Source: a virus. From it: a stretch of DNA of 38,674 nucleotides. Below the pieces are notes generated by a model, which searched no databases, was not told the DNA's origin, and saw only the letters and a list, made by a program, of their open reading frames with translations. The stretch covers positions 1 to 38,674 of IMG/VR virus record IMGVR_UViG_3300027413_000449; one strand, given 5' to 3'. Every line of letters begins with the position of its first letter. The first letter of the stretch is position 1. The translations under genes and the position numbers were made by a program. Shown piece after piece: positions 5,306-38,674 of the stretch.

Positions 5306-5329
5306 TTAATAATTTTTTAAAAAACAAGT

Positions 5330-6095: not shown

Positions 6096-6109
6096 ATTAA
6101 ACCAATTTT

Positions 6110-7596: not shown

Positions 7597-7602
7597 AAAG
7601 AA

Positions 7603-9971: not shown

Positions 9972-9972
9972 A

Positions 9973-11262: not shown

Positions 11263-11304
11263 TAAATACAATAGGTAGTTTTAGTAGGCCTAAATCACTA
11301 ATTC

Positions 11305-11339
11305 AGGGAGGCTGTATGGCGTGCCTCCCTCTACTTTTA
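11305..11339 (+). terminator. GC-rich hairpin after the MoxR gene, probable terminator
   Basis: A perfect 8-bp stem AGGGAGGC/GCCTCCCT (11305-11312 with 11323-11330) with a 10-nt loop, followed by CTACTTTTATTT. The T tract is interrupted, so termination may be partial. The hairpin ends 26 nt before the next start codon. The upstream 42 nt contain TTAGTAGGCCT, similar to the element before the hairpin at 6067. The 94-nt gap otherwise holds nothing. Confidence 0.6.
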
Positions 11340-11356
11340 TTTAAATTAAAAAACAC

Positions 11357-12397: not shown

Positions 12398-13383
12398 ATT
12401 TAGACAATTTTAAATTTAGTTACAGCAGTTTGAAAAAGCTGCTGGATACGCCTAAGATATTCTATAAAGAATATGTATTAGGAGAAAAGGAAATAAGTAC
12501 TGAGAAGTACCTATTAGAAGGCAGTCTTATACATTATCTATTATTAGATAATGAAAAGTTTGATTCTAAATACATAGTGGCTAGCGATAAATTACCTAGC
12601 CCAACAAATATAGCAGTAGCAAAATATGTTTTTGAAAACAGTAGTAAGGGAAGTAGCCTTGAAGATAATGAGACTTTAATTCTTAAAAAGTTACAAGAGT
12701 TAGACAAACATCAGTCTTTAAAGGATACAAAAGATGGCGTGACAGGAGATTCAAAAAGATTGAAAAAGATAATTGAACCTAACACTGAAGAGTATTATAA
12801 CTTTCTTCAGTTAAAAGGTAGTAAAGAAATTATTGATTCAGAGATGCTTGACAAATGCACTAGACGTGTGGACATAATCAAAGAAGATGTAGATACTTTA
12901 AAGCTTCTTGGTCTTGATCAATACAAAGATTTGTACCAAGATGTTAAGTGTGAGTATCCAATTGATATTAAGAATGTTAGAGGTTCTAGATTTGGTTTAA
13001 AAGGTATACTTGATAATGTAACTGTAGATAAAAATTCTAAAGTGACAATCAATGACTTTAAAACAACCAGCAAAGATCTCTCAAAATTTTCTGAGACTGT
13101 GGACTTCTATAGATATTCATTGCAAGCTGCAGTCTATGTTGAATTAGTAAGAGTAATGTTTGAAGAAGAACTTGACATTAAACTTACTTCATCTGATATA
13201 GATTTTAATTTTGTTGTGTTTGATAGGTTTGATCAGTTGTATACATTTCCTGTATCAAAAGACACATTAGACAATTGGAAAATAGAATTTGTACATGATA
13301 TACTTCCTAAAGTTACTTGGCATGTTGAGTCTCAAAGATATGATTTACCTTATGAATTTGCATTAAAAAAGGTATATTTATAG
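12376..13383 (+). CDS. RecB/Cas4-type PD-(D/E)XK exonuclease
   Basis: 335 residues from the ATG at 12376. An ATG at 12349 would add nine residues and lengthen the overlap with the previous gene from 22 to 49 nt. The start of the domain is marked by FSYSSLKKLLDTPKIFYKEYV and EGSLIHYLLLDNEKF, the classical opening of RecE/Cas4/RecB-like nucleases. The catalytic site is D213 in GILDN, D227-x-K229 in INDFKTT, and the supporting motif YSLQAAVYVELV. Such nucleases resect double-stranded DNA to single strands for annealing. With the Sak4-like ATPase and SSB it could form a phage recombination set. Alternatively it may degrade host DNA. Confidence 0.75.
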   Translation: MVGNGQLDLDNFKFSYSSLKKLLDTPKIFYKEYVLGEKEISTEKYLLEGSLIHYLLLDNEKFDSKYIVASDKLPSPTNIAVAKYVFENSSKGSSLEDNETLILKKLQELDKHQSLKDTKDGVTGDSKRLKKIIEPNTEEYYNFLQLKGSKEIIDSEMLDKCTRRVDIIKEDVDTLKLLGLDQYKDLYQDVKCEYPIDIKNVRGSRFGLKGILDNVTVDKNSKVTINDFKTTSKDLSKFSETVDFYRYSLQAAVYVELVRVMFEEELDIKLTSSDIDFNFVVFDRFDQLYTFPVSKDTLDNWKIEFVHDILPKVTWHVESQRYDLPYEFALKKVYL

Positions 13384-13384
13384 T

Positions 13385-13960
13385 ATGGTGATTAAAAGTA
13401 TACAAGGAACATACATTCAGAAGAGTAGGATATTTTTATATCCTTTACTCGCAATAAGAAGAGGTGTAAGTGTAGTTCCCAAGCAAACGTTTATGTCTTG
13501 GGAAGGGACTTATAAGTTAGATGATTATAAATTAATTTGTAATTATCATATAAGAAAAGATAAAGAGTTCAAGTTATTTGAAGAAGTTAAACTATTAGGT
13601 AATAATTTATTTGATACTTATATAGAATTAGATGATGGTTCATGCGCATATGTATTTGATTTTTCAAAATATAAAAAGCAGTATGATATTATTATAGAAG
13701 GTAAGTATACAGATTTAGATAATGATTATAAGAAACAGATATTGAATTTTTTTAAGAACAATGTTAAAAATCATACAATGATTAGGAGTTATTTATATCC
13801 TTTAAACTATTACGATCAATATGCAAAGTTATATGACGTACCTGTTGATCTGTTAAAAGGTGTAAAACAGTTATGCTCTAAACCAGATTTAAAAGAAGAA
13901 TCATTTAGAGTTAATGAAAAAAGTTCTATATTTGATAAAAACAAAAAGATAAACCAATGA
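13385..13960 (+). CDS. Hypothetical protein, 191 aa
   Basis: A basic protein of mixed structure starting 1 nt after the nuclease stop. The N-terminal half contains SRIFLYPLLAIRRGVSVVPKQTFMSW, then EGTYKLDDYKLICNYHIRKD, and an acidic strand DTYIELDDGSCAYVFDF, which suggests a beta-sandwich. The C-terminal region is lysine-rich and helical (DYKKQILNFFKNNVKNH). No catalytic motif or membrane segment is visible and I do not recognise the family. The 4-nt overlap (ATGA) with the following gene and tight spacing to the nuclease indicate coexpression. Confidence 0.6.
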   Translation: MVIKSIQGTYIQKSRIFLYPLLAIRRGVSVVPKQTFMSWEGTYKLDDYKLICNYHIRKDKEFKLFEEVKLLGNNLFDTYIELDDGSCAYVFDFSKYKKQYDIIIEGKYTDLDNDYKKQILNFFKNNVKNHTMIRSYLYPLNYYDQYAKLYDVPVDLLKGVKQLCSKPDLKEESFRVNEKSSIFDKNKKINQ

Positions 13961-14415
13961 CAAAAAAAGCAACAACTTACGGAAAGAATATGCTTATGAT
14001 AAGCACATATCTTGGTAAAGGAAATACATTTAAGATGATTCCTGTAACAAGTGATTGCCCGTATTCAGAAGTAATTTATGATCCTACTACTACATTGTTA
14101 GTAGTAATTAGTAAAATTCAGAAAGAAAACTTTCATATGACTGCACGGTTAGATGAAGACGGTAATCCTATGCAAGCTAAGAAGCCAAAAGCAAATGGTA
14201 AAACATACAAAGAGAAAGAAGTAATCATGAAAACTTTTCAAGAATACTATGTTCCAGAGTATGATGAGCAAGTAGCATTTATTGAATCATTTGGCGTTAA
14301 TGCTGATTCCTTTAATTGGAGTAAGCATTTAAGGAACATTGACTCAGAACCTGCACTAGATTTGCTTAAGCAAGAAAAGCCAGCGATTGTAGACATGGCA
14401 GGAAAGGAAATGTAA
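13957..14415 (+). CDS. Hypothetical protein, 152 aa
   Basis: The N-terminal half is beta-like (TYGKNMLMISTYLGKGNTFK, CPYSEVIYDPTTTLLVVISK). It is followed by a basic loop KKPKANGKTYKEKEVIMKTF and an acidic helical C-terminus (DYVP-like segment, SEPALDLLKQEKPAIVD). No known family is recognised and no metal or nucleotide motif is seen. It overlaps the upstream gene by 4 nt and ends a block closed by the hairpin at 14436, immediately ahead of DNA polymerase. A replication accessory role is plausible from position only. Confidence 0.6.
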   Translation: MTKKATTYGKNMLMISTYLGKGNTFKMIPVTSDCPYSEVIYDPTTTLLVVISKIQKENFHMTARLDEDGNPMQAKKPKANGKTYKEKEVIMKTFQEYYVPEYDEQVAFIESFGVNADSFNWSKHLRNIDSEPALDLLKQEKPAIVDMAGKEM

Positions 14416-14435
14416 TTTATAAACATATCATATCA

Positions 14436-14460
14436 ATGGGGACCACGTGTCCCTATTTTT
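14436..14460 (+). terminator. Intrinsic terminator upstream of the DNA polymerase gene
   Basis: An 8-bp stem ATGGGGAC/GTCCCTAT with one G-U pair (14436-14443 with 14449-14456), loop CACGT, and four further T residues. The stem ends 22 nt before the polymerase start codon. Confidence 0.6.
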
Positions 14461-14478
14461 ATGCCTAAAAATTAAAAC

Positions 14479-16464
14479 ATGAGTCATTGGGTAATGGATT
14501 ATGAAACAAATGTAAATTGTTTTCTTGGTGTTTTTGAACACTATAAAACAAATGAAGTACATGTATTTACCTGTGGCAAATTGCGTAATGACTTTGATAA
14601 GTTTATAGATTTCTTAGATGGAAATATTGAAGAACAATCTTTTCATATTTCATATAACGGCTTGGCATTTGATTCACAGATAACAGAATATATATTAGTA
14701 AACAGAGATCTAATGTATACATTAGACGGTGAGGAAATAGCAAAGTTAATTTATGCAAAAGCTCAAGACTGTATAACTAGATCTAGAAATAAAGACTTTC
14801 AAGAATGGTATGATAAAACATTAAGCATTAAACAGATTGATGTTTTTAAATTAAATCACTGGGACAATGCTGCTAAGAGATCAAGTCTTAAATGGATACA
14901 ATGCAGTATGCGGTGGAATAATGTACAAGACATGCCTATTGATCATACAGAAGAAATAAATACAGTAGAACAATTAAAACAAATAGCAAGTTACTGTAGG
15001 AATGATGTTGCTAGTACTAAAAAGATAATGGAACTTAGTAGTGGAGAAATTAAACTTCGCATGGGCCTTACTGAAAAGTATAACATAATTCTATGGAGTG
15101 CATCAGAACCACGGATAGCAAAAGAACTATTTGCAGATGCCATATCTAAGAAGACAGGTATCAACAAGTATGACCTAAAAGAAATGCGTACTAATAGAAA
15201 TAGTATTATAGTTAAAGATTTAATTCTTGACTACTTACAATTCAATAGTCCTGTATTTAAAAATCTAAAAGACAAATTCTCAACACTAAGACTTGATGCT
15301 AATAACCTTAAAGGAAGTTTTCATGAAGTAATAAAATACAGAGGAGTTGAAATAAGCTTTGGTCTAGGCGGTGTTCACGGTGCTAAGAGAGGTATATATG
15401 AACCTGAAGAGTACATGACAATTGTTAGTAGTGATGTAGTAAGTTATTACCCTAACCTAGCAATAAAACAAGAATGGCATCCTGCTCATCTTCCAAAGAA
15501 AGATTTTTGTCACCAGTATGAATGGTTCTTTAAAGAAAGAAAGAAGATACCAAAGTCTAATCCACAAAATTATGTATACAAGATTGTATTAAATTCAGCA
15601 TATGGTCTAAGCAATGATCAGCATAGTTTTTTATATGATCCTGAATTCACAATGAGAGTTACTATTAATGGTCAATTAAGTTTGATGTTATTAAGTGAAA
15701 TGATTTGTGAAAATATACCAGGTGCTGTACCATTAATGTATAATACAGATGGTGTAGAAACGATAATACCTAAAAAGTATTATGATAAGTACATAGAGAT
15801 TTGTAATGAATGGGAAGTAATAACAAAGTTGTCATTAGAACATGATGAGTATTCCAAACTAATGCTGCCTGATTGTAATAATTATATAGGCGTGTTCAAG
15901 AAAAAGGAAATACACAAGGATGTATATGATGAGTTAATCAAAAAACCTACATATGATATACTAACAAAAGATGCAGATAAATATTACCTGTCTCCGGTAA
16001 AACTAAAAGGCCGTTTTGAGATAAGCAAAAAGCTACATAAAAACTGTAGTTATAAAGTAGTAGCAGAAGGTTTATATAATTTCTTTGTAAAAGGAATTGA
16101 ACCTGAATATACTGTAAGTAAAAATCGCAATGTGCTAGATTATTGTGCGCAAGCTAAAATAAAAGGTGATTGGTCTTTCTATTCTTTGAATATAGTAGAA
16201 GGCAATTATGTTAAAGAAAAACTTCAGAAAACAAATAGATATTTTGTAACCAATAAAGGTTGTAAGATTGTAAAAATAAATAACACTGATCAAAGAGAGA
16301 TACAATTAGAGTCAGGCAAATGGCTACAAAAAATCTTTAATACATATCAGAAAAGAAGTTGGGAAGATTATGACATCAATGAAGAATATTATATCCAAAA
16401 GATATATAAAGAAATCAAAGAGATGAATCCACAACTGTTTATAAACCAATATAAATTATTTTAA
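14479..16464 (+). CDS. Family B DNA polymerase with 3'-5' exonuclease
   Basis: 661 residues, compact for family B. Exonuclease motifs are present: Exo I DYE (D7, E9), Exo II NGLAFD (N60-D65) and Exo III YCRND (Y172-D176). Polymerase motif A is SDVVSYYP (D319), motif B is KIVLNSAYG (K368-G376) and motif C is YNTDG (D424), where the usual first aspartate position of the YxDTD motif is Asn. The C-terminal thumb region is lysine-rich. It copies the phage genome with proofreading, together with helicase and primase encoded upstream. No obvious terminal-protein region is visible. A hairpin lies just before the start and the next gene follows after 1 nt. Confidence 0.9.
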   Translation: MSHWVMDYETNVNCFLGVFEHYKTNEVHVFTCGKLRNDFDKFIDFLDGNIEEQSFHISYNGLAFDSQITEYILVNRDLMYTLDGEEIAKLIYAKAQDCITRSRNKDFQEWYDKTLSIKQIDVFKLNHWDNAAKRSSLKWIQCSMRWNNVQDMPIDHTEEINTVEQLKQIASYCRNDVASTKKIMELSSGEIKLRMGLTEKYNIILWSASEPRIAKELFADAISKKTGINKYDLKEMRTNRNSIIVKDLILDYLQFNSPVFKNLKDKFSTLRLDANNLKGSFHEVIKYRGVEISFGLGGVHGAKRGIYEPEEYMTIVSSDVVSYYPNLAIKQEWHPAHLPKKDFCHQYEWFFKERKKIPKSNPQNYVYKIVLNSAYGLSNDQHSFLYDPEFTMRVTINGQLSLMLLSEMICENIPGAVPLMYNTDGVETIIPKKYYDKYIEICNEWEVITKLSLEHDEYSKLMLPDCNNYIGVFKKKEIHKDVYDELIKKPTYDILTKDADKYYLSPVKLKGRFEISKKLHKNCSYKVVAEGLYNFFVKGIEPEYTVSKNRNVLDYCAQAKIKGDWSFYSLNIVEGNYVKEKLQKTNRYFVTNKGCKIVKINNTDQREIQLESGKWLQKIFNTYQKRSWEDYDINEEYYIQKIYKEIKEMNPQLFINQYKLF

Positions 16465-19000: not shown

Positions 19001-19029
19001 AACCCTTGATTCGTCAAGGGTTTTTTTTT
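19001..19029 (+). terminator. Strong terminator with UUCG tetraloop at the convergence point
   Basis: A perfect 9-bp stem AACCCTTGA/TCAAGGGTT (19001-19009 with 19014-19022) closed by the stable loop TTCG, with T residues to 19029. It ends rightward transcription of the small unit right at the stop codon of the minus-strand giant gene. The minus-strand reading lacks a clean U run. The 86 nt between the small gene and the stem contain an open 24-codon frame discussed under findings. Confidence 0.85.
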
Positions 19030-24952: not shown

Positions 24953-27900
24953 TTAAATTTTACACATTTTCATAAAGTCTAGTACTGCTTGATCAGACTT
25001 TTCTATTAATTCTTGTTCAGATACATCTTGATTGACAGATTCTATTACTGCACTACCACTTGCACTTGTATTATAACCAGGGTTAATATAACCAAATCTT
25101 TTGAATAATTCTTCAGATAAGTACAACCATGTTTGCACACCAATTCGTTTTTCTGAATTTGGTAATGTTTTTAGCATATCCATACCATAACCTTCAGAAC
25201 TAAACTCTAACACATTATCTTCAGATACTCTATTTTCTATGGCATCTAATCTATCATCAATAGCTTCTTGAACTTTAGGGTCTATTTTCATAACACCATT
25301 AACTTCAATATCTTTTATAACATTAGAGAAAGCTTGACCACTCTTAAGGCCATAAGATGCCATACTTATTAAAGGTAGAGAGTTTATTTGCTCTTTTAAT
25401 ATTAATTCATCATTTGTTCTTGTACCTGGTTTATCATTAGGATCAATAGATCCGTTAACAATCATTATACCTTTAGGTATATATTTTTTAATAGAGCTAA
25501 CTGATTGTTGGAAATTAGGATATGTAGTATATCCACTACGATCTCCTGACTTAACAAGTTTGGATTGTATTTTTCTTTCACTTCCATCAAATAATCTCCA
25601 AGTACCAAGTACTTCACCATCTATTGTTATTTCACTATACAAATAACCTAGCTCAGTCATTGCTTCAAATAGCATGCGTTCTCCAGAATTATAAGTATTC
25701 TTTGGATCAAAGGTATAATCTTTGTTATCAGTTATTATAACAGCACCCCTGTCAACTGCAAAAGCAGCTTCTGATATGGTCTTTTTCTGAGCTGCTAATC
25801 TAAACTTTTTTGCTCCTCTCTCTCCACCAATAGATACAAATATTACATCATTACTATTATATTCACCCGTATTAGCAAATGGGCCGGCTTGTTTAGCATA
25901 ATTAGCTGTACTACTACCTGCAATATTATCAGCAAATCCTATGTACTGTGTTGCAATACTTGCTTTTACTGAAGCTTTTTGATCAGGTCGTCCTTGAATA
26001 GGAGTAATAGTAAAAAGATTCTTTACAGAAGTATCTATATCTCTTGATTGCAAAGAAGATTGAACAAGAGTATAAGATTCATTTAAAGCTTCAATAAACC
26101 AATTTTGTCCTCCTGTTTCCCAAACAGTATTTTGATTGGTAGGTTGATGTGTAGATCCTAATATCCAAGGTGTACCTCCCTGAGCAGTAATAGCTGTTGG
26201 GAGTTCTGTATATGTAGCAAGTTTAGTTTGTAACAAATCAACCATAAGAGCATAATTTTTACTCTTAAATCTATCAGGTTTTGTTTTAGATTCGCTAGTA
26301 TCTTTAAGAGCTTGATACGCCTCTTCTACATCTTTATATGTTTTATTCTTATAAGTTATAGGATAAGACTTGCTTATTTTTCCTTTAGACTTAGCTAACT
26401 CTGTTGGATTGGTAAGTGTTGCACCAAGTGTATCATTAGAGTTAGACGATATAGAAATACCTTTAACAGTTAATTGAGATGGTGGAATATGTCTAAAGTT
26501 AATGCTATAGCGTGTACCTTTAGCTCTACCTACTGAGTGGCTTAATTTTCCAGTACTCATTTCAGCTAATGAATTATTTTTAGCTTGAAAATCAACACCA
26601 CCAATTTTATGTTTATTTTTAGTTTCCCCAATGGAATAGATGGCAACACTTCCTACTTCACCTTTTTCATTATCATAAATACTTTCAGCATCAGTATGTG
26701 TCCCTATACCTACATCATCACCATATCTATTAATAAGCACATGATTATAATATCCTTCAGGTTTCCCTAGTTGTCGCTCAACATCTCTTGAAAGTTTTTG
26801 CATCCAATCAGGTTGTATCTTTTTTGTATGAATTGCAGTTCTTCCTGCACCCATACTATATCTATACTCTAAAGGACCATATGAAATAGCAACTTGCTTA
26901 GATTCATCATTTCTATTGCTCATTCTATTCTCTTCTGTATTTAGAAGATTTTCTACTTTATCAATAAAGTCTCTAGTTGCACCATCAGTAAAAACTTTAT
27001 CTATAGTAGTTACACTACCACCATTTACAGGAGTAGTGACCGCTTTTTTACTTAGTTGAGGTTTTTTTAAATCTTTAGTTACAGATTTAGAAATCAAGCC
27101 TGTACCTTCATCATTTACCTCAGTAATTAAACCATATCTAGTTTTTAATTGATTCTGTAGCCATAAAGCAAACCTATTAGGTACTGATGCTAATGAATTA
27201 GCAAACCCATCAGGAAATTTCTTAGAATCAAATTGATCTAACTTATCAAACTGTTCTAAGTTAATCTTTTGAAATAATTCAAAGTCAGCATTTGTATCTT
27301 GGAAATTTTGATTATACCATTGTCCTGTTCCTTTATACTCTTCTTTAATTTTAAGAGCTTGAGGTGTATTCCTATTTTCACTATAGAAATAATATTTTTT
27401 AGTTACTATGCCAATAGCATTAGGATTATTTCTAATTACAGCAGAACCTTTTCCAACTCTAGTATCTCCTATTGAGTTTATATTTTCAGTAAATACATAA
27501 GCTGTAGCAGGGTTTTCTTTTGGTGAATCTTTAGTCCATCTTTTAGTATTAATACTAACCTCAGTAGCTGATTGATTTAAATCTTTATTTATATCTGGAG
27601 CAGAAACAGGAGCCGTTGCATTTTTCCTTATTACTTCATCTATCTTAGATTTCATTTGCTTAGGAGTAATCAAAGTAGCAAACTTAGACTTTTTAATTGT
27701 AAGGTTTTTAGCAGCTCTTGTTATTGCAGTATACATCCATCTTGGACCCCAATTTCGTTCATTTCCTTGATTTACATAGACATTATCCCATTGACTACCT
27801 TGAGACTTATGCCCAGTTATTGCATATCCATATGTTGCAATTAAAGTTAAAGGCGAATCTTGTTTACTACTTAGATATGGTTCTTTCATTCTATCAAAAG

Positions 27901-30900
27901 CAATCATATTATTGCCATATAGATAATCCATGAATTCTTTATCTTCAACAGCGCCTTTCATTATATCGTCAGATAACATAGAAGCTTTAGCTGCATCTGG
28001 AAAAATTAAAGCTATTCCATCAAATCCTTCCATTCGGACAGCAACAACTTTTTGTTTACCTGCAGTACCAAAATCAATTACTTTTTCAAACTCTATTGAT
28101 TGAAAATTATCTAGCTTATGAGTTTCACCATTCTTAAATCCTAATTTTCTATTTGCTATAGCTATTAGACTTTCTCCAGGAACTACTGAATCAGCATCAG
28201 AACCATACAATTCTTTTCTTACAGTATTATTTACTCTAACTCTGTCTTTATTAGAGCCTGTTAGCATAACTGCATCATTTCCTTCTTTTAAGTCATCTAT
28301 AAATTTTTGTTCAAATTCATCTCTATTTTCAATTACTGTTACATCATTTGTAGATTCTGTAGGTTCATATGCTTTTTGATCTGTTCGCATTAGTGTAGCT
28401 AGTGTTAATATATCACTATCTAAACTTTGCCTCCGTACTTCTTGAAGTTCAACCATTTCCATGCCTTCCATTCCTTCAAATAATTTAGGATCTAGACCAA
28501 CTGGAGCAAGTTGAAAACTATCACCTAAAAATACAGCAATATTATTAGCACCTTTATTTAACTCTTTATTTAGATCTCTTAATAAAGTCTCATTTATCAT
28601 TGACGCTTCATCAACTATAAAAATGGTATTATTTACTGCCTCTACTGACTTATCATTAAATACAAACTCACCATCAACAGGTACTCCATACAACATTTTA
28701 TGCAGTGTATTAAAATCTTTATCTTTTCCTTCTAATTTAGTTTTTAATACATTAACAGCTTTATTAGTAGGTGCTGCTATTTTAACTTTAAATCCTTGAT
28801 CTATTGCATACTGTTGTATATTTTCAGCAATAGTTGTTTTACCTGTACCAGCATAACCCGCTAATAAGAAATATCTAGGATCAGTACCTTTAGATTTGTT
28901 TACATCGTCAATTAATGTTTGTACTTTTTCTAATGCTTGAGCTTGACCTGAAGTGTAATCTATTTTATTTCTTCTAGCTTCTAGTATAGAATCATATTTA
29001 AACTCTGCTCCATCTTTTTGATATGCATTTAATAAACGCATACTAATTTGAATATTTTTTTGTCTTAACTCAGCAAAAAATATTTCATTCATTTCTTGAA
29101 TGTTACCTAAAGCTGTAAGCATTGCGGTTCCAGCCTTTTCTATATTTTCACCCTTAACTGAACTAGGTTCAGAAAAGAAATTTCCTGTACCTCCAGCATC
29201 ATTATATAACTTTTGATAGCGCAAAAGAAAAGTGTATGCTCTTTCAGGAGTAGATAATAAGTTTTTTATATCTTGAGGTTCATATACTAAACCAACCTTT
29301 TCCAAAATAGCTTTTTGAACTTTAGCGTTAGTACCTTTATAAGTATCTTTTAAGATAGCATCTGAAACTTGTGCTGCTTGTTCAGGATTGCTTAAAGTTT
29401 TAATTATTATTTCATTGTCTCGGTTTCCTATAAGGACATCACTATCTCTTAAAACAACATGATCAGGAACTAAAATATCGTATAACTCTCTGTCATCAAA
29501 AAGTCTTTCATTCGGTACAGCATATCTGCCATTCCCAGGAGTAACTTGTTCAAAGTTTTTATATCTTATAAGCTGAGCACGCCCTTCTTTGGTTTTAATC
29601 AATTGATTAAAATAAGATTTATAATCTTGTACATCTATAGAAAAATCTTTTTTATTAAGTGCATTCTCAAGATATAGCGCATACTCTTCTTCTACAATAT
29701 TATTTATTGAATAACGACCACCAGTATTTAACCCAGTCTGTAAAAATGCAACTATTGGAAAATCATTAAAGACATCTACTATATTTTGTATCTCTGTATC
29801 TGTTAATGTAGGGACACTAGCTCTAAGCAAATCTGCATCTCTAAGTATTGACATCTCTTCTTTTAATGCATTAACTTCCATTAAGTCAGGTACTTCACTA
29901 TACTTTAAGTTACTTATCTTGCTGCCTTTCTTTCTATCTAACTCAAAGGCTTCAAATATTTTAAATTTATTTAGATCAGGAGTTATGCTCTTAACCATAA
30001 AGAATCTATCTGCAAAATTACCTGTAGGATTCTTAAATATTGATTCTATATTAAAGTTAGACATCAATGCCTCATCTCTTAGGAAAGACTCATATGCATA
30101 CTTAATTTGTCTTGACTTAAGTTTATCTAACGTTTCTTCTTTTCGTGGCTTAATTATAGATTCAGCAACTGATAAATTATTCTGAAAAAATACGTTTTCA
30201 GTCAATTTTTTATTCAGAGGTTTTAACTCTCTTTGTATTTCTCTTTCAATTGAAAATTTTATATAATCTTTTTTAGTTCCAAAGTAAGTAGAAGGTATTG
30301 GTGCTTTACCAAAGTTTTTAAAGAATTGATTATCAATAAATGATTTAGCATTGAATTGATTTTCCAATGTCAATTGGTCAAGAATTATTACACCATTTTT
30401 TACTGCGACTCCAGACTTTGGTAAAATTCCTTTCTCTACAGTAAGTTCTGTTTTAACATCTCTACGTTTATATGATGGATTTTCTGGATCATTAAACAAA
30501 GGTTTGTTATTCATTTCCCGTTGCCACATAAAAGGAATAAAATCATTTTTAAACATAACCATGTCCTTATCAGATAAGTCCATGTCTTCAGCTTGTATCA
30601 AAAGTAATTTATTTAATTCTTCAGAGTTTCTTATTGGCTGTAGTATTCTTGCTAAGGATAATTGTAAGTCTTGTATGTAGAAAGGTGATATAGCAGAATC
30701 TGTAAGAAGCTTATCTACTATTTCTTCAGGAAGAGCTTTGCTATCTCTGATTTTTTCAATCTTGTTTTGTCTATCGTATGCATCAAATACAGTAGTATCT
30801 TTACTAGTATCAACATTTGTTACCATTTTTATATCTCTAATTGGTAACGCCATCTTTTCTAATTGTATAAAATGCAGCAACATCTGAATTGATTTTAAAG

Positions 30901-33900
30901 AAGCAATGTTATCTTCAAATCCATTATTCTTTTTAAAACTAGTGAGCTCATTTTTCATTTCACCCATGGTAAAATTCTTATTGTTTCTTATTCTAGTATG
31001 TGTAAGAAGTTTATGCTGTAGCTTTGTCAAAATCATCTTGATAGCTCTAATGTTTCCTTCTTCTAGTGCTGCTATATCAGCTTCAGATAAAGCATCAATA
31101 GCTTTTAATCCATCAAACACTCCAAATTCAGGATCCATTATGAGTTCAAATGCGGCAATATTTCTATAGTTTCTTTTATTAACAGAAATTGGATTTCCTT
31201 TTACAGCATCATAAACAACACTTTTAACAAACTTTTGCTTTTCAACATAAGCTCTAGTTAATGGATTGGCTACAAAGTAAACTGCTTGATCTATAGGAAC
31301 ACCTGCTTGTACCATTGCTAATAGTGTAGGTGAAACTTCTTTAGTAGCTTGTACATCAAATACCCAACCACCTTTAGCAACATCAACCCATCCATTCATT
31401 AATTGATTAATCACATCAGATATAGAATAACTTGTAATACCTTTAGGAAATAATTGTGATAAAGAAATCACATCCTCATCTTTAACTTTTGTGGTATTAT
31501 GATCTAAAAGTATTGTTTGTACAGTTGTGGACATTAGCTTTTCTGTCTCTGGATCTCCTAATCTTTCACCATTAGCCATCTTACCTAGTAATCTTAATAC
31601 TTCTTCTTTAGTAACATCAGTGTTAGTAGGATTCATATACGCACCAACATTATTAAATAATATATTATATGTGTTATCAACAGCACCTAATCCTAAAGCT
31701 TCTTTACCAATTTTATTTTCTTGATGCTTAAGCATATTATACTGATACTCAAAAATACTTGTGGCAGGTAAAACAGGGCTTATAACTTTTCGTATAGAGT
31801 CCTCATCTCCTGGAATATCCTGCATTTCATATTCTTTTACATTGTATTCTCTAGTCAATCCTCCTACTGTGTCTACTAATGATTCATCAGTACCTTCAAA
31901 GTCTCTAGTAAATAGCGCAGTACTATTAGGTGTTACTAGGTTATTGTAGTTTGATTTTAAAGAAAGTATATCAGATATATTTTTTATAAGTCTATTTTCT
32001 ATAGCAGATTTAGAATCTCCTTTAGTAAGATTTACTTCTGTTAATGTCTTAGAATTTATTATCTCATATATTTTTTTATCATTCTCAGTAAGTTGGTATA
32101 CAGGAATGGTTTCTAGCATTTCAGTTCTACTAACAAATAACTGGTCGCCTTCACGTTTACTTCTTAAAGAAGTAATAGGTTCTGTTAATGCTTCATAGTC
32201 AGTGCTTTCAACAATATCCAAAATCATTTGAACATTGTCTCTACTAAAATCAAGATCAGGATTTTCACTTTGCAAATCACTTAAGAAAGTATTTGTTAAA
32301 GATTCCTTGCTAACCTTTCTTTCAATGTTAGGCATCATTACAGTCATCTTATCTACATCATAATCAGCTCCTGATTTAGATACTACTTCAGATGGAGATA
32401 TAATAATGTTACCTGCTTCAGCCGGTAAGAATTCTCTTACTTGCATAAATTCCATAGAGTTCAAACCTTGTACTGGAATACGAACAGCAGTCATAGTAAT
32501 CATCTGTCTATGATCTCCTGTATTTAACCATTTTTCGTCTTTAATGGCAATGTTTAAAGTTTCTATATTTCCTATTCTTGTTCCTTCATATTCTAAGTCT
32601 AAAAGGTTTTGGAACTTACCTCTAAGACTTACTTTTACATCCATAGGTAATGTTTCACCATTAGGCCCTTCTCTATAAAATCTTAAACCATTAGTTCCAT
32701 ATTCTTCTAAATCTTCTTTGGTTGGATTTGCAAATGATGATTGTACTGCATCTTTATTTTCAAACAAAGTAGAAGCTACTTGAACTAGAGCTTCACCATT
32801 TACTTTACTTGTTACTAATCGTTTTACAAGTATAGAGTTTAATACTTTTTCAATTTGAGCAGAGTAAAATGATAATGATAAATCACCTTTAGTGTTTCGT
32901 CCTTGTCTGTCTATAAAGCTAATGGCATGATCAGGAAGATCATCCTTCAGCTCTTTTTTCATAAACTGTACAAGACTTGCAATATCACCTTCGTATTCTT
33001 TTGTATCTTCATTAAAAGTGATTCCTATTTCTCTAAGCAAATTATCTTTATATAAATCTGCAAGAGCTTTAATATTACCTTCAAAAGATTTTAAGAGTTT
33101 GTAATTATCAGAGTTTTGCTCACCCTCACCTTTACTAACAAGTTCCTCCCATTTTTCTTTACGAACCTCTTGGTCAGTTTCATCAGTCATAAAGTCTTTT
33201 GGTACACCACCTTCCAGCAAACCATCAGAAACTAATTTTCTAAGCTGAGTAGAAAAAACAACGCTACCTTTATCTTTGCTAGCAATATCTAATTGATTTT
33301 TTAGATACTTTATATGAATAACATTCTTTGTAAATACTTCAGTATTAGGATCAGATTCTTTTATACTTGGTAACAAAGTTCTATTGTTTGTGCCTTCTTC
33401 AAATATTCTATCTGCACCACTATCTTTACTTCTATGAATTGTGCTTACTTTAGATCCTGATTCAAAAGTAACATACTGGATGTTTTCTTGAATCATTTTC
33501 TTATGTATATCTTCTGCCTTTGTACCTTTAGTCATACTAGGTATCAGGGGCATAAGAGAGTACTTATGAAACGCTACCAAATTTAATCTATTATTTGTAA
33601 CAGCCAAAGGTCCCCAGTATTGGAATTTTTTGACTGCAAAGAAATTAGTAACATCTGTTGGATCTACTTCTACACCATTAATAATGTCGCGGTATAATAA
33701 TTCTTGTTCGTTTGACCATTCATTTTGAGCAATTGATAACGCTCTATAGGCATCAAAAGTAATAAGTCCTTGTGCATCTGCTTCTTGCATTTCAGCTTCT
33801 GCATAGTCTCGTGCTTTTTCTGGACCTAACTTTTCTACTAATGAATTATAATAAATAGAACCAACTTTCATCTCTTTGATGATTCCTGTATTCAATGTAT

Positions 33901-36900
33901 CACTATAATTAAAATCATTACCTTCTGGAATTATAAATCCATCACGTTTTAATTTAGAAGCATATGTATGATAAGTTAATGCATCATTATTAATAAAGTC
34001 TTGCATTACTTGGTCAGTTCTAAGTATAGTTCCTGTTGAACCTGCACCCGCATTACGTTTGTGAAATTCTTGTTTTACATGATTATACAATGCTACATCT
34101 CCATAAATCATACCCATGGTGTCATAATTATGCAACCAATGGTTAACAGTAAATGCAGTAATCAATTGACCAGGAGAAAGTCCAGAACTAGAATCTGTAA
34201 ATCTCTTAACTCTATTATCAAAAATACCATTATTGATCCTAGCTTGTCTCTCAAAGTAAGTAATAATATGTGGAGCTACTAACTCTTTAATCTCAGCTTG
34301 ATTATTCTCAATATTTTTTTGGAAAGACAATTCATTGTCAAACTTATTAATAATTTCCTTTAGCTGATTTATTACTTTTGTTGGTAAAATTTTTTCAAAA
34401 ATCTGAAAGTTTTGCCCATTCTCAATATATTTAAAATCATAGTTCTCAAAGTTTTTATCAGCTGCATATCCTTTAAGAATAGATATTCTAGACATCTCTC
34501 CATAAAGAGCAGGTAAAACTTTATCCACAGTTTCAGCTTTCCAAGCAGTTGATTTAAAATCATTTAACTTAACATGCCTATCTTGAGCACTAGGACCTAC
34601 TACTTTAACCATGTAAGAAGTTCCTTTATCTGCATGCCTCATGTTTTCAAAATAACCTTTCTTAAATAAAGCTAAGTCCATAATGATCTTAGTATACTCA
34701 TCAGATCCAGCAGCAGATTTACCTACAACATTATCGTTTTGTTCAAAAGCTAATCCACTAAGATTAAATACAGCTAACTTGTTACCAGTTCTATCACCGT
34801 ATTTTTTATCTTTTGGTAAGTTGTTTATGTCTAAATAAAACAACTGATTCATTATGTCATTATAGTTTGAAAAAGGATTGTTTGTCACATTTAAGTGACT
34901 CATGGATGGCTGATTTATTACGTCATAATAATCTTTAGCATTGTTTAAATCATTTATTAATGATGTCATGCTATTATTAAGCTGATGTTCAAACTGTGCA
35001 TTACCTTCAGCATTACTAGTCATATAGTTGTTTACATGATCACCAAACCTTGCTTCTAGTTGAATCAATCTGTTCCATGTACCTGCATTACCTCTTAGTG
35101 TAACGTTTACATTATTAGCATCATTCTTAACGTTTACTTCAGAATAAAGATCATTAAGATCTCTTATTTTCATTTGTTCTCCGTCTATACTAACACCTTT
35201 ATTAACTGCTGAAACTCTTTCCCAAAAGAATTGAGGATCAAACAAATTACTAGATTTAATTTTATCAAGTATATTTCTTTTGTTAGATAAGTCAAAACCA
35301 ATAGCTTTAAAGAAACCTATCCTATCACTTTGAGCAGATGCTTTACTAGGAAATGCTTGCATTACTTTTACAGTATTCAAATAGTTTCCTTCATTATCTC
35401 TAGACATGTAAGAATTATTTGGCTGTGAAGCTCTAAATCTTGAATTCCATATTGTTCCTATTTTTCTATCCGCACCAAAAGCTTGACCTACAGTTTCACT
35501 AAACGAAACGTTATTATCAGCATCTACTTCTTTTTTAAGAGTAACTTGAACTAAAGGAACTCTAGATTTATTAAATGCATCAAAGAAGTCTGTCCAATAT
35601 CCATGTTCACTAAATGAAACAACATCGCTACTTGGAACACCAAGTCTTGTAAATATTTCATTTAATGTTTTATCTTCTTTGGCAGCCGCAATTAGTTTTT
35701 CTACAAGACGATCAAAGTCTGGAGTATTTTCAGTAGTCTTTGCTACGTTATTCCAAACTAAATCCATATCCATCTTTTCAGCTACACCATACTTATTAAA
35801 TACAATGTTTCCATTAGAATCATATTTAGGTAATGTGCTAAATAAGTATACAATGTTTGCCTTTGCTAAAGCTTTTAAAGAATCTTCATTACCTTTTCTT
35901 ACATAACCTGTTCTAGATACAAGCTCTGGAGCAATTGATTCTTGAGCAAAGTACTGCATGTCATCAAAAAACTTAGAATTTAAAACATGAAAACCTGTAA
36001 CATCTTTGTAACCATTTGTAAGTGCAATCTTAGGATTACGTCTTTCACCAAAGTTATTTACAGCGCTATTTAATACATTAAGCTTTTGTTCTTCTCTTTG
36101 TAATTCATTTAGAGCTCTATTAATAAGATTTGCGTCATTACCTTTAGCAACTTCATCGTACTTCTTTTTCTTTTTATCAACTACCTCAGCTTGTTTATTA
36201 GATAAGTCTTGAAATCTTTTATATGCATATTCATACGCTTCAGCCAAAGACCCAGGTTTTCTAAAAATATCACCACTATATTTATTAGTGGCATTTCTAT
36301 TAAACGCATCTCTTTTTTGTTTAATAACTTGATTTAGAATATCAACTGATATTATCCTAGATTTCTCTTCAGGCGTTATAATATTTGCCTCACTTAATTT
36401 GTTTATAGAGTCCTTAATAAACTGGCTTATAACAGTCCTGCTACGTCCAGTAAGACTTGAGTTATATTCAATATCATTTAGTAATAAGTATTGTTCTTGT
36501 TGTTCATTTGAACGTCCAGAGTTTTTTTGATCAATATGCTCTACAATAAAATTATCCATTAAGTCTAATACGTCACTAGAATCTCTATAGTTAAGAGGAG
36601 CAGCATCTTTATTAGACGGATCAATAACATTTAAATTCAGTGTACCAAACGTTGCATTGTTTTTATAGCTAAAGTTTTCTACTGAAAAACTACCTGATTT
36701 TAATTTACTAAACGTCTCTAGTATTAATGCATCAGACATTGGATTACTATAAGTCTCAAAATAACTTGCTTCACTAAACAATGCTTTTAATGCATTAAAT
36801 AATTTTCTAAAGAAACCATTTTGTTTTGATTTACCTTTAGCAGTCTTTTGACCATTAATCATATACGTTCTGAAAGACTCAGCTAAATACTCTTCAATTT

Positions 36901-38674
36901 CTCTATCCGTAGCATTATCAAATGTTTTTGAATTACCTTCAAAAGTTGTAAAAGTTCCACTGTATTTTCTTACTGCATTATATAAATCTTGTTTTTCTTT
37001 TTTACTAAGAAACCCTTGTGTAAATGAATGAAATGCTTCATGCCACATATCAGTCCAATCAGCCCCTTTAAATAAAGTAATTCCATCTCTAGTCCAATTA
37101 GCAAATACATCAGGGTTTTTACTATTTACTTTCTCCCATAATAAATTAAAAGGAACAACTTTAGAAAGAGGACTGCTTCTCCACCATTTCTCAGCAGCTA
37201 TAATATCTTTACCTGCAGGTGTAGTTCTTAAATCTCTAATAACCTTACTGATGTCTAGTGGATCTACATCTGGCTTTTCATCTTTTTTATTTTGTTCTTC
37301 TTTTATAGGGAGTATATTTTCTCCTTTAGAAGGTTCGCTAGTCTCTTGAAGTATAGATTTACTTTCATTTACTTTTACATTAACAGGAGAATCAAATGTA
37401 ATATATGGTCTACTCTTATTTACTTCTCCTCCATTGATATCAGCGTTTGATAATCTTGTTATTCTAAAACCACCTTGAGACAGATACTCAATGTTACTAA
37501 TTTTTTCATACTTTATAGAATTAGTATTAGGGTCATATTTAGCAACATCGCTTCTATCTTTTAAATGTTTTGAAGATGCATTTAGTTTAGCATGAGCTGC
37601 AGGATAAGAGTATGATGATCCTTGTTTTTGAATCCTATCTCCTAATAGCTTGTCAAAGATTTGTAGTGCTTCATTCTTACCTTCTTCAGTAGAAAGTTTT
37701 TCAGCACTAAATGTCTGTAATGAATTATTACCAGAGTCAATAGTCAAAGAATAACCTGAGCCATCTTGCTTAAAACTTATAAGTCCTGGTTTGTCTTCTC
37801 TATATGATGTAAGTTTTGGATTAACAAAACTTGTAATCAAATTAACACGTTCTTTTAATGAATAGTTATCTCCGTTTTGTTTTTTTAAATCTTGATTAAA
37901 GTACAACGCTTTGATTGTTGGAACAAAACTACTATCTATTATTGCAGGTTTTTCTAATTCAAAAAGAGTATTTGAATTGTCAGTTAAAAACTTAATACTA
38001 ACCGTATTAGTTTGACCAGAAGTAAATGCTGTAGAAATAGTAAATGGTTCAGAAACTGAAGATACAAGAGCCATATCACTAGTGTTCGGAATCTTTTGAG
38101 ATTGCTTTAACATTATACTGTCAGAACCATTGGCTATATTTAATGCTACTCTATTTGTTTTTGGACTTGCATTTATATGTTTTTTTATTGCATTAAGAAC
38201 TGCAAACTCTTGTTCCAATATAGTCTTTGCTTGAGAGGGAGCTATTCTTAATGATTTTGACAATGCAGTAACCATTTTATCATTAAATGTTGTCGCATCT
38301 TGTTTAGCATTTCCTTGCATTGAAAAATAGACATAATCACCATTCCAAGATTTCTCACCTTCACTGTCATAAGTTGAAGGCACAAAGTCACCAGGGTTAA
38401 GCTGACTTTCTTCTGCTACTAAAAGACCTATAGTTCCTCTTTCTATATCTGCCTCAGTTATATACTTATTTGCAATAAGTTGATTTTGAACATCTTTAGA
38501 AAGTTCTTTAACATTAATAGCTAATAACTTATCTTTAGATTCTGCTAATGGATCATTTACATTTTTAATTATGTTAGCTAATACCTTTTGAGCAGACTCT
38601 GATCCAGTCTGTCCAACAGTCGTTCCTAAAACACTAGGTATACTTAAATTAAAAGCAGTTTCTACTCCTTCAAC
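24953..38674 (-). CDS. Giant polyprotein with virion RNA polymerase, SF1 helicase and AlkB-like domains, 5' end outside window
   Basis: At least 4573 residues. The frame has no stop up to the window edge, and the GTG at 38383 is not convincing as a start because 97 further codons are open upstream. Counting from the edge: HEAFH (545-549) with EYLAE (595-599) is a gluzincin-type peptidase motif. K1704 (FHKYSLMPLIP), K1742 (SGSKV), a run with RIPVQG and FLPAEAG, and DYDVD (2104-2108) match the double-psi barrel core of crAss-like single-chain RNA polymerases. An SF1 RecD/Dda-type helicase has Walker A GYAGTGKTT (3273-3281), DEAS (D3355), GDSFQLAPV, GHKSQG and AITRA (about 3652). An AlkB-like dioxygenase has HTD (3993-3995), H4046 and RYSINFR (4055-4061). 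A NADAR-like region lies near 4102-4205. It is probably ejected with the genome to transcribe early genes. Confidence 0.8.
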   Translation of the reverse strand, partial: VEGVETAFNLSIPSVLGTTVGQTGSESAQKVLANIIKNVNDPLAESKDKLLAINVKELSKDVQNQLIANKYITEADIERGTIGLLVAEESQLNPGDFVPSTYDSEGEKSWNGDYVYFSMQGNAKQDATTFNDKMVTALSKSLRIAPSQAKTILEQEFAVLNAIKKHINASPKTNRVALNIANGSDSIMLKQSQKIPNTSDMALVSSVSEPFTISTAFTSGQTNTVSIKFLTDNSNTLFELEKPAIIDSSFVPTIKALYFNQDLKKQNGDNYSLKERVNLITSFVNPKLTSYREDKPGLISFKQDGSGYSLTIDSGNNSLQTFSAEKLSTEEGKNEALQIFDKLLGDRIQKQGSSYSYPAAHAKLNASSKHLKDRSDVAKYDPNTNSIKYEKISNIEYLSQGGFRITRLSNADINGGEVNKSRPYITFDSPVNVKVNESKSILQETSEPSKGENILPIKEEQNKKDEKPDVDPLDISKVIRDLRTTPAGKDIIAAEKWWRSSPLSKVVPFNLLWEKVNSKNPDVFANWTRDGITLFKGADWTDMWHEAFHSFTQGFLSKKEKQDLYNAVRKYSGTFTTFEGNSKTFDNATDREIEEYLAESFRTYMINGQKTAKGKSKQNGFFRKLFNALKALFSEASYFETYSNPMSDALILETFSKLKSGSFSVENFSYKNNATFGTLNLNVIDPSNKDAAPLNYRDSSDVLDLMDNFIVEHIDQKNSGRSNEQQEQYLLLNDIEYNSSLTGRSRTVISQFIKDSINKLSEANIITPEEKSRIISVDILNQVIKQKRDAFNRNATNKYSGDIFRKPGSLAEAYEYAYKRFQDLSNKQAEVVDKKKKKYDEVAKGNDANLINRALNELQREEQKLNVLNSAVNNFGERRNPKIALTNGYKDVTGFHVLNSKFFDDMQYFAQESIAPELVSRTGYVRKGNEDSLKALAKANIVYLFSTLPKYDSNGNIVFNKYGVAEKMDMDLVWNNVAKTTENTPDFDRLVEKLIAAAKEDKTLNEIFTRLGVPSSDVVSFSEHGYWTDFFDAFNKSRVPLVQVTLKKEVDADNNVSFSETVGQAFGADRKIGTIWNSRFRASQPNNSYMSRDNEGNYLNTVKVMQAFPSKASAQSDRIGFFKAIGFDLSNKRNILDKIKSSNLFDPQFFWERVSAVNKGVSIDGEQMKIRDLNDLYSEVNVKNDANNVNVTLRGNAGTWNRLIQLEARFGDHVNNYMTSNAEGNAQFEHQLNNSMTSLINDLNNAKDYYDVINQPSMSHLNVTNNPFSNYNDIMNQLFYLDINNLPKDKKYGDRTGNKLAVFNLSGLAFEQNDNVVGKSAAGSDEYTKIIMDLALFKKGYFENMRHADKGTSYMVKVVGPSAQDRHVKLNDFKSTAWKAETVDKVLPALYGEMSRISILKGYAADKNFENYDFKYIENGQNFQIFEKILPTKVINQLKEIINKFDNELSFQKNIENNQAEIKELVAPHIITYFERQARINNGIFDNRVKRFTDSSSGLSPGQLITAFTVNHWLHNYDTMGMIYGDVALYNHVKQEFHKRNAGAGSTGTILRTDQVMQDFINNDALTYHTYASKLKRDGFIIPEGNDFNYSDTLNTGIIKEMKVGSIYYNSLVEKLGPEKARDYAEAEMQEADAQGLITFDAYRALSIAQNEWSNEQELLYRDIINGVEVDPTDVTNFFAVKKFQYWGPLAVTNNRLNLVAFHKYSLMPLIPSMTKGTKAEDIHKKMIQENIQYVTFESGSKVSTIHRSKDSGADRIFEEGTNNRTLLPSIKESDPNTEVFTKNVIHIKYLKNQLDIASKDKGSVVFSTQLRKLVSDGLLEGGVPKDFMTDETDQEVRKEKWEELVSKGEGEQNSDNYKLLKSFEGNIKALADLYKDNLLREIGITFNEDTKEYEGDIASLVQFMKKELKDDLPDHAISFIDRQGRNTKGDLSLSFYSAQIEKVLNSILVKRLVTSKVNGEALVQVASTLFENKDAVQSSFANPTKEDLEEYGTNGLRFYREGPNGETLPMDVKVSLRGKFQNLLDLEYEGTRIGNIETLNIAIKDEKWLNTGDHRQMITMTAVRIPVQGLNSMEFMQVREFLPAEAGNIIISPSEVVSKSGADYDVDKMTVMMPNIERKVSKESLTNTFLSDLQSENPDLDFSRDNVQMILDIVESTDYEALTEPITSLRSKREGDQLFVSRTEMLETIPVYQLTENDKKIYEIINSKTLTEVNLTKGDSKSAIENRLIKNISDILSLKSNYNNLVTPNSTALFTRDFEGTDESLVDTVGGLTREYNVKEYEMQDIPGDEDSIRKVISPVLPATSIFEYQYNMLKHQENKIGKEALGLGAVDNTYNILFNNVGAYMNPTNTDVTKEEVLRLLGKMANGERLGDPETEKLMSTTVQTILLDHNTTKVKDEDVISLSQLFPKGITSYSISDVINQLMNGWVDVAKGGWVFDVQATKEVSPTLLAMVQAGVPIDQAVYFVANPLTRAYVEKQKFVKSVVYDAVKGNPISVNKRNYRNIAAFELIMDPEFGVFDGLKAIDALSEADIAALEEGNIRAIKMILTKLQHKLLTHTRIRNNKNFTMGEMKNELTSFKKNNGFEDNIASLKSIQMLLHFIQLEKMALPIRDIKMVTNVDTSKDTTVFDAYDRQNKIEKIRDSKALPEEIVDKLLTDSAISPFYIQDLQLSLARILQPIRNSEELNKLLLIQAEDMDLSDKDMVMFKNDFIPFMWQREMNNKPLFNDPENPSYKRRDVKTELTVEKGILPKSGVAVKNGVIILDQLTLENQFNAKSFIDNQFFKNFGKAPIPSTYFGTKKDYIKFSIEREIQRELKPLNKKLTENVFFQNNLSVAESIIKPRKEETLDKLKSRQIKYAYESFLRDEALMSNFNIESIFKNPTGNFADRFFMVKSITPDLNKFKIFEAFELDRKKGSKISNLKYSEVPDLMEVNALKEEMSILRDADLLRASVPTLTDTEIQNIVDVFNDFPIVAFLQTGLNTGGRYSINNIVEEEYALYLENALNKKDFSIDVQDYKSYFNQLIKTKEGRAQLIRYKNFEQVTPGNGRYAVPNERLFDDRELYDILVPDHVVLRDSDVLIGNRDNEIIIKTLSNPEQAAQVSDAILKDTYKGTNAKVQKAILEKVGLVYEPQDIKNLLSTPERAYTFLLRYQKLYNDAGGTGNFFSEPSSVKGENIEKAGTAMLTALGNIQEMNEIFFAELRQKNIQISMRLLNAYQKDGAEFKYDSILEARRNKIDYTSGQAQALEKVQTLIDDVNKSKGTDPRYFLLAGYAGTGKTTIAENIQQYAIDQGFKVKIAAPTNKAVNVLKTKLEGKDKDFNTLHKMLYGVPVDGEFVFNDKSVEAVNNTIFIVDEASMINETLLRDLNKELNKGANNIAVFLGDSFQLAPVGLDPKLFEGMEGMEMVELQEVRRQSLDSDILTLATLMRTDQKAYEPTESTNDVTVIENRDEFEQKFIDDLKEGNDAVMLTGSNKDRVRVNNTVRKELYGSDADSVVPGESLIAIANRKLGFKNGETHKLDNFQSIEFEKVIDFGTAGKQKVVAVRMEGFDGIALIFPDAAKASMLSDDIMKGAVEDKEFMDYLYGNNMIAFDRMKEPYLSSKQDSPLTLIATYGYAITGHKSQGSQWDNVYVNQGNERNWGPRWMYTAITRAAKNLTIKKSKFATLITPKQMKSKIDEVIRKNATAPVSAPDINKDLNQSATEVSINTKRWTKDSPKENPATAYVFTENINSIGDTRVGKGSAVIRNNPNAIGIVTKKYYFYSENRNTPQALKIKEEYKGTGQWYNQNFQDTNADFELFQKINLEQFDKLDQFDSKKFPDGFANSLASVPNRFALWLQNQLKTRYGLITEVNDEGTGLISKSVTKDLKKPQLSKKAVTTPVNGGSVTTIDKVFTDGATRDFIDKVENLLNTEENRMSNRNDESKQVAISYGPLEYRYSMGAGRTAIHTKKIQPDWMQKLSRDVERQLGKPEGYYNHVLINRYGDDVGIGTHTDAESIYDNEKGEVGSVAIYSIGETKNKHKIGGVDFQAKNNSLAEMSTGKLSHSVGRAKGTRYSINFRHIPPSQLTVKGISISSNSNDTLGATLTNPTELAKSKGKISKSYPITYKNKTYKDVEEAYQALKDTSESKTKPDRFKSKNYALMVDLLQTKLATYTELPTAITAQGGTPWILGSTHQPTNQNTVWETGGQNWFIEALNESYTLVQSSLQSRDIDTSVKNLFTITPIQGRPDQKASVKASIATQYIGFADNIAGSSTANYAKQAGPFANTGEYNSNDVIFVSIGGERGAKKFRLAAQKKTISEAAFAVDRGAVIITDNKDYTFDPKNTYNSGERMLFEAMTELGYLYSEITIDGEVLGTWRLFDGSERKIQSKLVKSGDRSGYTTYPNFQQSVSSIKKYIPKGIMIVNGSIDPNDKPGTRTNDELILKEQINSLPLISMASYGLKSGQAFSNVIKDIEVNGVMKIDPKVQEAIDDRLDAIENRVSEDNVLEFSSEGYGMDMLKTLPNSEKRIGVQTWLYLSEELFKRFGYINPGYNTSASGSAVIESVNQDVSEQELIEKSDQAVLDFMKMCKI

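Follow-up and report, generated by a model that had tools for sequence, protein, structure and literature searches.

Helicase, AlkB-type and NADAR modules within the chain of a giant crAss-like phage RNA polymerase

In the human gut, crAss-like phages are among the commonest phages, yet the giant RNA polymerases that they encode are frequently labelled 'hypothetical'. The IMG/VR virus record IMGVR_UViG_3300027413_000449, a stretch of 38,674 nucleotides that was analysed whole and is referred to here as the window, raises the question of what such a protein may carry besides a polymerase: motifs of a metallopeptidase, an RNA polymerase, a helicase, a dioxygenase and a NADAR-like domain all lie in one minus-strand open reading frame (ORF). 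In this study, we report that the frame is intact and encodes, with high confidence as to its architecture and the identity of its domains, a crAss-like phage RNA polymerase with an insert of about 1,380 residues between the polymerase core and a conserved C-terminal domain. The insert comprises an SF1B helicase, DUF7831, an AlkB-type dioxygenase, a divergent NADAR and an unclassified domain. The best overall explanation, to which we assign a probability of roughly one half, is a polymerase whose chain has turned into a carrier of counter-defence and repair enzymes.

An intact frame on a crAss-like polymerase backbone

The frame (Table 1) contains 4573 sense codons with a single stop at its end and zero internal stops, and it reaches the edge of the contig; an equally long stop-free run would arise by chance at the base composition of the window with P ~ 10^-159. 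Codon-position GC is even along the entire frame (GC at the third position, GC3, is 0.12-0.23 in each 300-codon block), so that there is no switch of the kind expected at a frameshift or chimera site. The first in-frame start in the window is a GTG at 38383. Because residues 1-284 of the window align with residues 481-766 of a related giant (L019), both upstream of and across this codon, the GTG is unlikely to be the true start, which probably lies outside the window. The full-length protein would probably measure about 5,000 aa.

Since the window is a 38.7 kb fragment out of a collection of virus contigs, an assembly chimera or an annotation artefact might have fused unrelated genes. This is so improbable that we set it aside. 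An independent contig from a separate record (L004) encodes the zincin, polymerase, helicase, AlkB, NADAR and C-terminal domains in one frame and in the order of the window, with 48.6% identity across window residues 396-3687, and on this ground an assembly fusion was rejected. Comparable fusions are present in many further contigs, and the uniform codon periodicity and the stop-free frame also speak against a chimera. Thus the single uninterrupted frame of 13.7 kb, open at the window edge, that had been described in a first-pass annotation of the same DNA withstood the search for a frameshift or assembly error splitting it. The motifs listed in that annotation were all found, and in the order given: HEAFH (residues 545-549), DYDVD (2104-2108), the Walker A motif GYAGTGKT (at 3273) with FIVDEAS and GHKSQG, HTD (3993-3995), RYSINFR (4055-4061) and a NADAR-like stretch (~4113-4190).

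The backbone was identified with profiles. A profile of the polymerase region, built from 10 sequences, had a sole match in the PDB, the DNA-dependent RNA polymerase 6VR4 (2194 aa; E=1.1e-39), and in the profile alignment the DYDVDKM of the window stands in register with DFDIDKM of 6VR4. The same profile matched crAss001 gp50 at E=1e-30 in a local set; E-values of the local hidden Markov model searches come from small sets, and several of the profiles include the window by construction. When the window polymerase was used as a tblastn query, the 'putative RNA polymerase' of crAss001 and other crAss-like phages were matched. The zincin profile matched crAss001 gp47 in its C-terminal part and, at residues 1984-2117, a 4551-aa protein of the crAss-like phage cr55_1. 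Relatives were sampled as 68 non-redundant polymerase giants, chosen on polymerase sequence alone from the best 80 of 194 loci. As the zincin was present in 64 of the 68 and the C-terminal domain in 52, zincin, polymerase and C-terminal domain likely form the ancestral backbone. By its profile matches and aligned motifs this backbone is that of a crAss-like RNA polymerase, and two double-psi beta-barrels are predicted within the one chain.

Table 1. Features of the window, with residue numbers of the giant protein in brackets
Feature	Position	Strand	Basis or remark
Giant crAss-like RNA polymerase ORF, at least 4573 aa	24953..38674	minus	5' end beyond contig
N-terminal region, divergent (1-470)	37265..38674	minus	alignment to L019
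Zincin-like metallopeptidase (491-691)	36602..37204	minus	profile alignment; HEAFH at 37028-37042
RNA polymerase (~1400-2994)	29693..34477	minus	6VR4 profile match and crAss001 tblastn; catalytic motif DYDVDKM at 32345-32365
Cargo 1: SF1B (RecD2/Dda-like) helicase (3200-3690)	27605..29077	minus	Pfam, PHROGs and NCBIfam matches
Cargo 2: DUF7831 (3715-3860)	27095..27532	minus	PF25176, 32.9 bits (cutoff 27)
Cargo 3: AlkB-type 2-oxoglutarate (2OG)-Fe(II) dioxygenase (3883-4061)	26492..27028	minus	weak PF13532 match, relatives' profile, motifs
Cargo 4: divergent NADAR (4066-4214; E4117, K4124, H4176, W4185)	26033..26479	minus	AlphaFold2 model, YbiA fold, E/K register
Cargo 5: unclassified alpha/beta domain SIG (4225-4372)	25559..26002	minus	IGF..SST..ANTG motifs; AlphaFold2 model
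Conserved C-terminal domain of polymerase backbone (4371-4573)	24956..25564	minus	alignment
Companion protein, 1973 aa	19028..24949	minus	3 bases downstream of giant ORF; homologues follow polymerase gene in relatives
Bidirectional terminator-like hairpin	19001..19022	.	between convergent polymerase and replication operons
Convergent replication module	2970..16464	plus	DnaB-like helicase, Sak4-like annealing protein, DnaG-like primase, exonuclease, DNA polymerase

The insert between polymerase core and C-terminal domain

The size of the insert is evident from the spacing of the backbone domains. The gap between polymerase and C-terminal domain is 150-160 aa in the cargo-free giants L017 and L019 compared with ~1,440 aa in the window, and the span from the catalytic core to the C-terminal domain, 2214 aa, is the longest found, the relatives ranging over 808-2189 aa (median 984, n=52).

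The helicase matched AAA_30 (E=7e-25) and UvrD_C_2 (E=4e-11) of Pfam, the Dda-like phrog_325 (E=2e-72) and the RecD2 model TIGR01448 (E=3e-33). Walker A and B motifs and the C-terminal UvrD_C_2 are both there, placing it in SF1B (RecD2/Dda). DUF7831, which follows, also terminates the 4551-aa giant of cr55_1.

In the dioxygenase the AlkB signature HxD...H...RxxxxxR is complete (H3993, D3995, H4046, R4055, R4061), and RYSINFR of the window corresponds to RYSITLR/RFSITLR of relatives. Of eight other giants whose post-polymerase region is long, five (L103, L114, L141, L145 and L169) had PF13532 scores above the cutoff, and a profile made from the AlkB segments of the first four alone retrieved the window from a small local set with an independent E-value (iE) of 9.5e-9. 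The second-iteration value of 5.8e-34 was excluded from the evidence, as that profile contains the window. A two-sequence profile of the window and L004 gave weak matches in the PDB (E 0.3-2), 14 of the 15 being AlkB homologues. A search of IMG/VR with the DUF7831 and AlkB stretch alone found no relatives.

Residues 4064-4400 received no name from Pfam, NCBIfam or PHROGs; the Pfam NADAR model PF08719 matched none of eight scanned members of the window-type module, and PHROGs gave a weak match, to the unnamed phrog_1017 only, for 18 of 27 members. The AlphaFold2 model, based on an alignment of 27 sequences, reached a predicted local distance difference test (pLDDT) score of 91.2. In Foldseek the top match was YbiA (E 9.8e-3, probability 1.00), followed by an oomycete NADAR-ADP-ribose complex, and VIA gave YbiA (2B3W) Z=10.1 (root-mean-square deviation 3.0, 124 residues) and 8BAU Z=9.7 (2.7, 121 residues), with 2.6 for the next row. 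E4117 and K4124, seven residues apart, are at least 90% conserved within the module family and fall on E48 and K55 of YbiA in a weak profile alignment. A Glu/Lys pair (E88/K95 in the E. coli C7 NADAR) is largely conserved in the superfamily and required for guanine de-ADP-ribosylation (PMC11543638). The near-invariant H4176 stands nine residues ahead of the invariant W4185 and, matched by spacing only, may be the equivalent of the histidine described as a hallmark of phage NADARs (PMC11543638, PMC11125620). The module is therefore named a divergent NADAR, by its modelled fold and catalytic pair.

No match to the window-type NADAR family was obtained among 50,697 named phage genomes. Tychonema and Agitococcus have stand-alone relatives of 132-150 aa, and another is contained in a Variovorax ORF; such proteins are a possible source of the module. 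Small stand-alone NADAR-like proteins were also seen in viral contigs. Together with those of Tychonema, Agitococcus and Variovorax, these loci are L048/L049 (9977-10378) and L100-L102.

The last domain of the insert is referred to as SIG, a label of our own. Its model has a pLDDT of 88.1, and comparison with known structures returned generic methyltransferase or Rossmann folds alone (Z<=5.4), with nothing convincing in BFVD; an early guess of a SLOG-like fold was dropped. An IMG/VR search with the SIG sequence alone yielded no relatives. An alignment query recovered 36 viral loci, nearly all within giant polymerase-type ORFs and, where a polymerase motif is visible, mostly several hundred residues C-terminal of it. 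Stand-alone relatives occur in Vibrio phages, for example Kuja, directly upstream of ribonucleotide reductase. SIG is thus a well-conserved, unnamed family with a confident fold that matches no known structure clearly.

All the domains proposed in the first-pass annotation are borne out by these results: the RNA polymerase by the single PDB match with its catalytic motif aligned, the SF1 helicase by four profile matches, the AlkB-type dioxygenase by the full signature and its retrieval with other polymerase-borne segments, and the NADAR-like domain by the YbiA fold and the aligned E/K pair. That list was incomplete, having overlooked DUF7831, SIG and the C-terminal domain.

Modules among relatives and the genomic setting

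At least one module type was borne by 21 of the 68 sampled giants, and the window has five, counting DUF7831. AlkB was found in 12, the helicase and SIG in 7 each and NADAR in 3, and 47 giants had none of these; the counts are lower bounds, the window-type profile missing a canonical NADAR in L170. The modules turn up in dozens of giant polymerases of uncultured viruses, one at a time, in pairs or in changed order. SIG-NADAR is placed ahead of zincin-polymerase in L011 and behind the polymerase in L022; polymerase-NADAR-helicase was found in L044, L045 and L046, polymerase-SIG-helicase in L060 and L068, polymerase-SIG-AlkB in L103, AlkB-NADAR in L033 and L037, and helicase-AlkB-NADAR in L004. 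In L043, NADAR lies in its own 1637-aa ORF (6110-11020), which ends where the polymerase ORF (11020-20361) starts, an arrangement that may represent either gene fission or a pre-fusion state.

In the 22 giants with both NADAR and polymerase, mean identity was 63% for NADAR and 35% for the polymerase core, and the two identities were weakly correlated (Spearman 0.23, over 231 non-independent pairs). The window and L026 share 78% identity in the core and 58% in NADAR, compared with 24% and 58% for the window and L028. This weak coupling suggests horizontal exchange of the module; strong constraint on NADAR could explain the flat identities instead and is the weaker alternative. The giant of L170 carries AlkB and, downstream of it, a NADAR of the canonical PF08719 type above cutoff (residues 3380-3652 and ~3952-4059). 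As this NADAR is separate from the window type, L170 is apparently an independent acquisition, and the AlkB-NADAR pairing would have arisen at least twice.

Two further observations concern the surroundings of the modules. ART-PolyVal, the ADP-ribosyltransferase of polyvalent proteins, is matched weakly and below cutoff in the post-polymerase regions of L141 and L179. Next to NADAR, L046 (2500-2840) and L004 (3780-3990) contain stretches that look, by eye, macro-like (FVFGSNTEGRHGAGSA) and YpsA/SLOG-like.

The setting of the giant gene is also crAss-like. The top matches of the window primase are crAss-like phages, and the giant transcription block is convergent with the replication block in the window and in a relative of 99.9 kb (G004), as in Crassvirales. 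The window is a fragment without the TerL/portal/major capsid protein (MCP)/gene75 signature block; in G004, TerL, portal and MCP are followed by the giants and then by the convergent replication genes, which is the crAss order. The nearest named relative of the G004 MCP (L093, 12668-14317) is that of Leptolyngbya phage Lbo-JY46, a cyanobacterial phage (29%, E=7e-58), followed by epsilon crAss, and the host range of this lineage may extend beyond Bacteroidota. Lbo-JY46 itself had no match to the polymerase, zincin, C-terminal, NADAR or SIG profiles. The companion protein has an HExxH motif of its own (HEFAH) and weak similarity to crAss001 gp49. Elsewhere in the window (8757-11262, plus strand), PHROGs labels 8757-9971 an HNH endonuclease (phrog_1314); by eye it resembles a protein that combines HExxH with von Willebrand A, beside a MoxR-like ATPase, and the phrog_1314 label is possibly a misannotation.

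Known systems and possible function

Size alone does not make the protein new, since crAss RNA polymerase genes of up to ~6000 aa have been reported (PMC10136315) and the cr55_1 homologue measures 4551 aa. Giant size is a known hallmark of Crassvirales; what is new is that the polymerase chain encloses a cassette of exchangeable cargo. The cores of phi14:2 gp66 (6VR4) and crAss001 gp50 are homologous to that of the window, with DxDxD in register, but the 2194-aa chain of 6VR4 lacks the zincin, the C-terminal domain and the cargo that the window chain adds. The cr55_1 giant (QOR58155.1, 'hypothetical protein') shares the window order, with zincin, polymerase (2761-3451) and DUF7831 (4351-4508). 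It stops right past DUF7831, its polymerase is just 24% identical to that of the window, and NADAR, SIG and the window-type C-terminal domain were not detected in it with the profiles used.

The polyvalent proteins that Iyer et al. 2017 (PMC5512222) described in phages and conjugative elements resemble the window protein in joining many enzymatic domains in a single chain, with an embedded metallopeptidase and predicted co-delivery with DNA, and the window chain, with several unrelated effector domains on a mobile element, would belong among them. The main text of that founding paper names no NADAR, 2OG/AlkB or crAss, whereas the chassis in the window is a crAss-like multisubunit-type RNA polymerase. 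With YbiA (2B3W), the oomycete NADAR (8BAU) and phage gp30.3, the window NADAR shares the fold and the E...K pair, and in having a conserved His close to the invariant Trp it is like the phage type; unlike known NADARs, it is missed by the Pfam model and forms one chain with an RNA polymerase. A virion polymerase is combined with other functions in one giant chain in Thermus phage P23-45 (PMC10770324) and N4 (PMC12633501) as well, but those are a tape-measure fusion and an ejectosome part, and the abstracts mention no repair or ADP-ribose enzymes. Literature pairing crAss-like phages with AlkB was not found in a search that left subscription papers and supplementary domain figures largely uncovered, so that an earlier mention is possible; for NADAR with virion RNA polymerase, a search of similarly incomplete coverage returned a general jumbo-phage review only and nothing on the crAss virion polymerase.

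Under the explanation that we prefer, of a polymerase carrying counter-defence and repair enzymes, the giant protein would be packaged in the phage head, leave it together with the genome and refold in the host. As the polymerase transcribes the early genes, the enzymes tethered to it would work on the same phage DNA and the nascent RNA: NADAR would hydrolyse guanine ADP-ribose left by DarT1-type host defences, AlkB would strip adducts, alkyl or other, by oxidation, and opening or clearing the template would fall to the helicase. Co-injection with the polymerase would give protection ahead of any phage gene expression. Delivery with the DNA is plausible by analogy, because gp47, gp49 and gp50, which are polymerase-related, were detected in crAss001 virions by mass spectrometry (PMC10172136) and early transcription in phi14:2 is performed by a polymerase that forms part of the virion (PMC7886860). 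DarTG ADP-ribosylates phage DNA, halting its replication and transcription (PMC11543638), and a phage-encoded NADAR takes ADP-ribose off guanine in vitro (PMC11125620). We infer packaging, activity, substrates and benefit, and rate the function so proposed at slightly below even odds. The wider proposition, that the virion polymerase is a general injection chassis for swapped modules and provides transcription-coupled, injected counter-defence, is doubtful.

Several points count against this explanation. About two thirds of the sampled polymerase giants are without any of the modules, so these are dispensable for transcription. The window's own PF13532 score is 26.8 bits, below the cutoff of 31.2, and the AlkB call leans on relatives; DUF7831 and SIG are without an assigned activity. 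Phage and other NADARs not linked to DarT1 were inefficient DarT1 antitoxins when tested in cells (PMC11125620), and because of this poor rescue the true substrate may be something other than guanine ADP-ribose in DNA. The description in the first-pass annotation of a 'self-contained takeover machine' goes too far in any case, as the same phage has a full replication module and, encoded separately, a polymerase-associated protein of 1973 aa.

The enzymes might also serve general template maintenance, with helicase, AlkB and possibly NADAR mending damage that virion DNA or early RNA suffers spontaneously or from the environment, and having no anti-defence role. AlkB enzymes repair alkylated DNA and RNA, and the helicase is of the RecD2/Dda type; NADAR and the weak ART-like matches in L141 and L179 suit conflict systems better, and patchy, shuffled and nearly uncoupled modules are typical of conflict genes rather than of housekeeping, which makes this reading quite improbable. 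If the polymerase were a mere vehicle, NADAR, and possibly DUF7831 and SIG, could act on soluble ADP-ribose derivatives from host signalling defences. Tethering is unnecessary for such a role, for L050 joins NADAR-like and DUF7831-like segments in one polymerase-free protein. It is nevertheless unlikely, given that the neighbouring helicase and AlkB work on nucleic acids, that AlkB adjoins NADAR in several lineages (window, L004, L033 and L037) and that base-linked ADP-ribose is among the known NADAR activities.

The chain may also be a true polyprotein, the term applied to it in the first-pass annotation, cleaved by its N-terminal zincin, from which helicase, AlkB, NADAR and polymerase act apart after injection or maturation. 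The retention of the zincin in nearly all sampled giants would fit, as would the separate genes of crAss001 (zincin match in gp47, polymerase in gp50) and the self-processing by an embedded peptidase proposed for polyvalent proteins (PMC5512222). Against this, cleavage sites or products are not known, and cargo-free giants have the zincin too, so that it is not specific to cargo release. We hold cleavage to be well short of probable, and it is compatible with a polymerase that carries counter-defence and repair enzymes.

The presence of exchangeable NADAR, AlkB and helicase modules in environmental relatives offers a testable idea for the surplus length of crAss-like polymerases. It ties ADP-ribosylation defence of the DarTG type to the virion polymerase, and AlkB and NADAR become candidate additions to the domains delivered with phage genomes. 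Inspection of the sequence between the polymerase core and the C-terminal domain may thus serve as a route for the discovery of counter-defence domains. If the virion polymerase does act as an injection chassis, defence marks such as guanine ADP-ribosylation and alkylation would be stripped in the first round of transcription, before phage protein synthesis.

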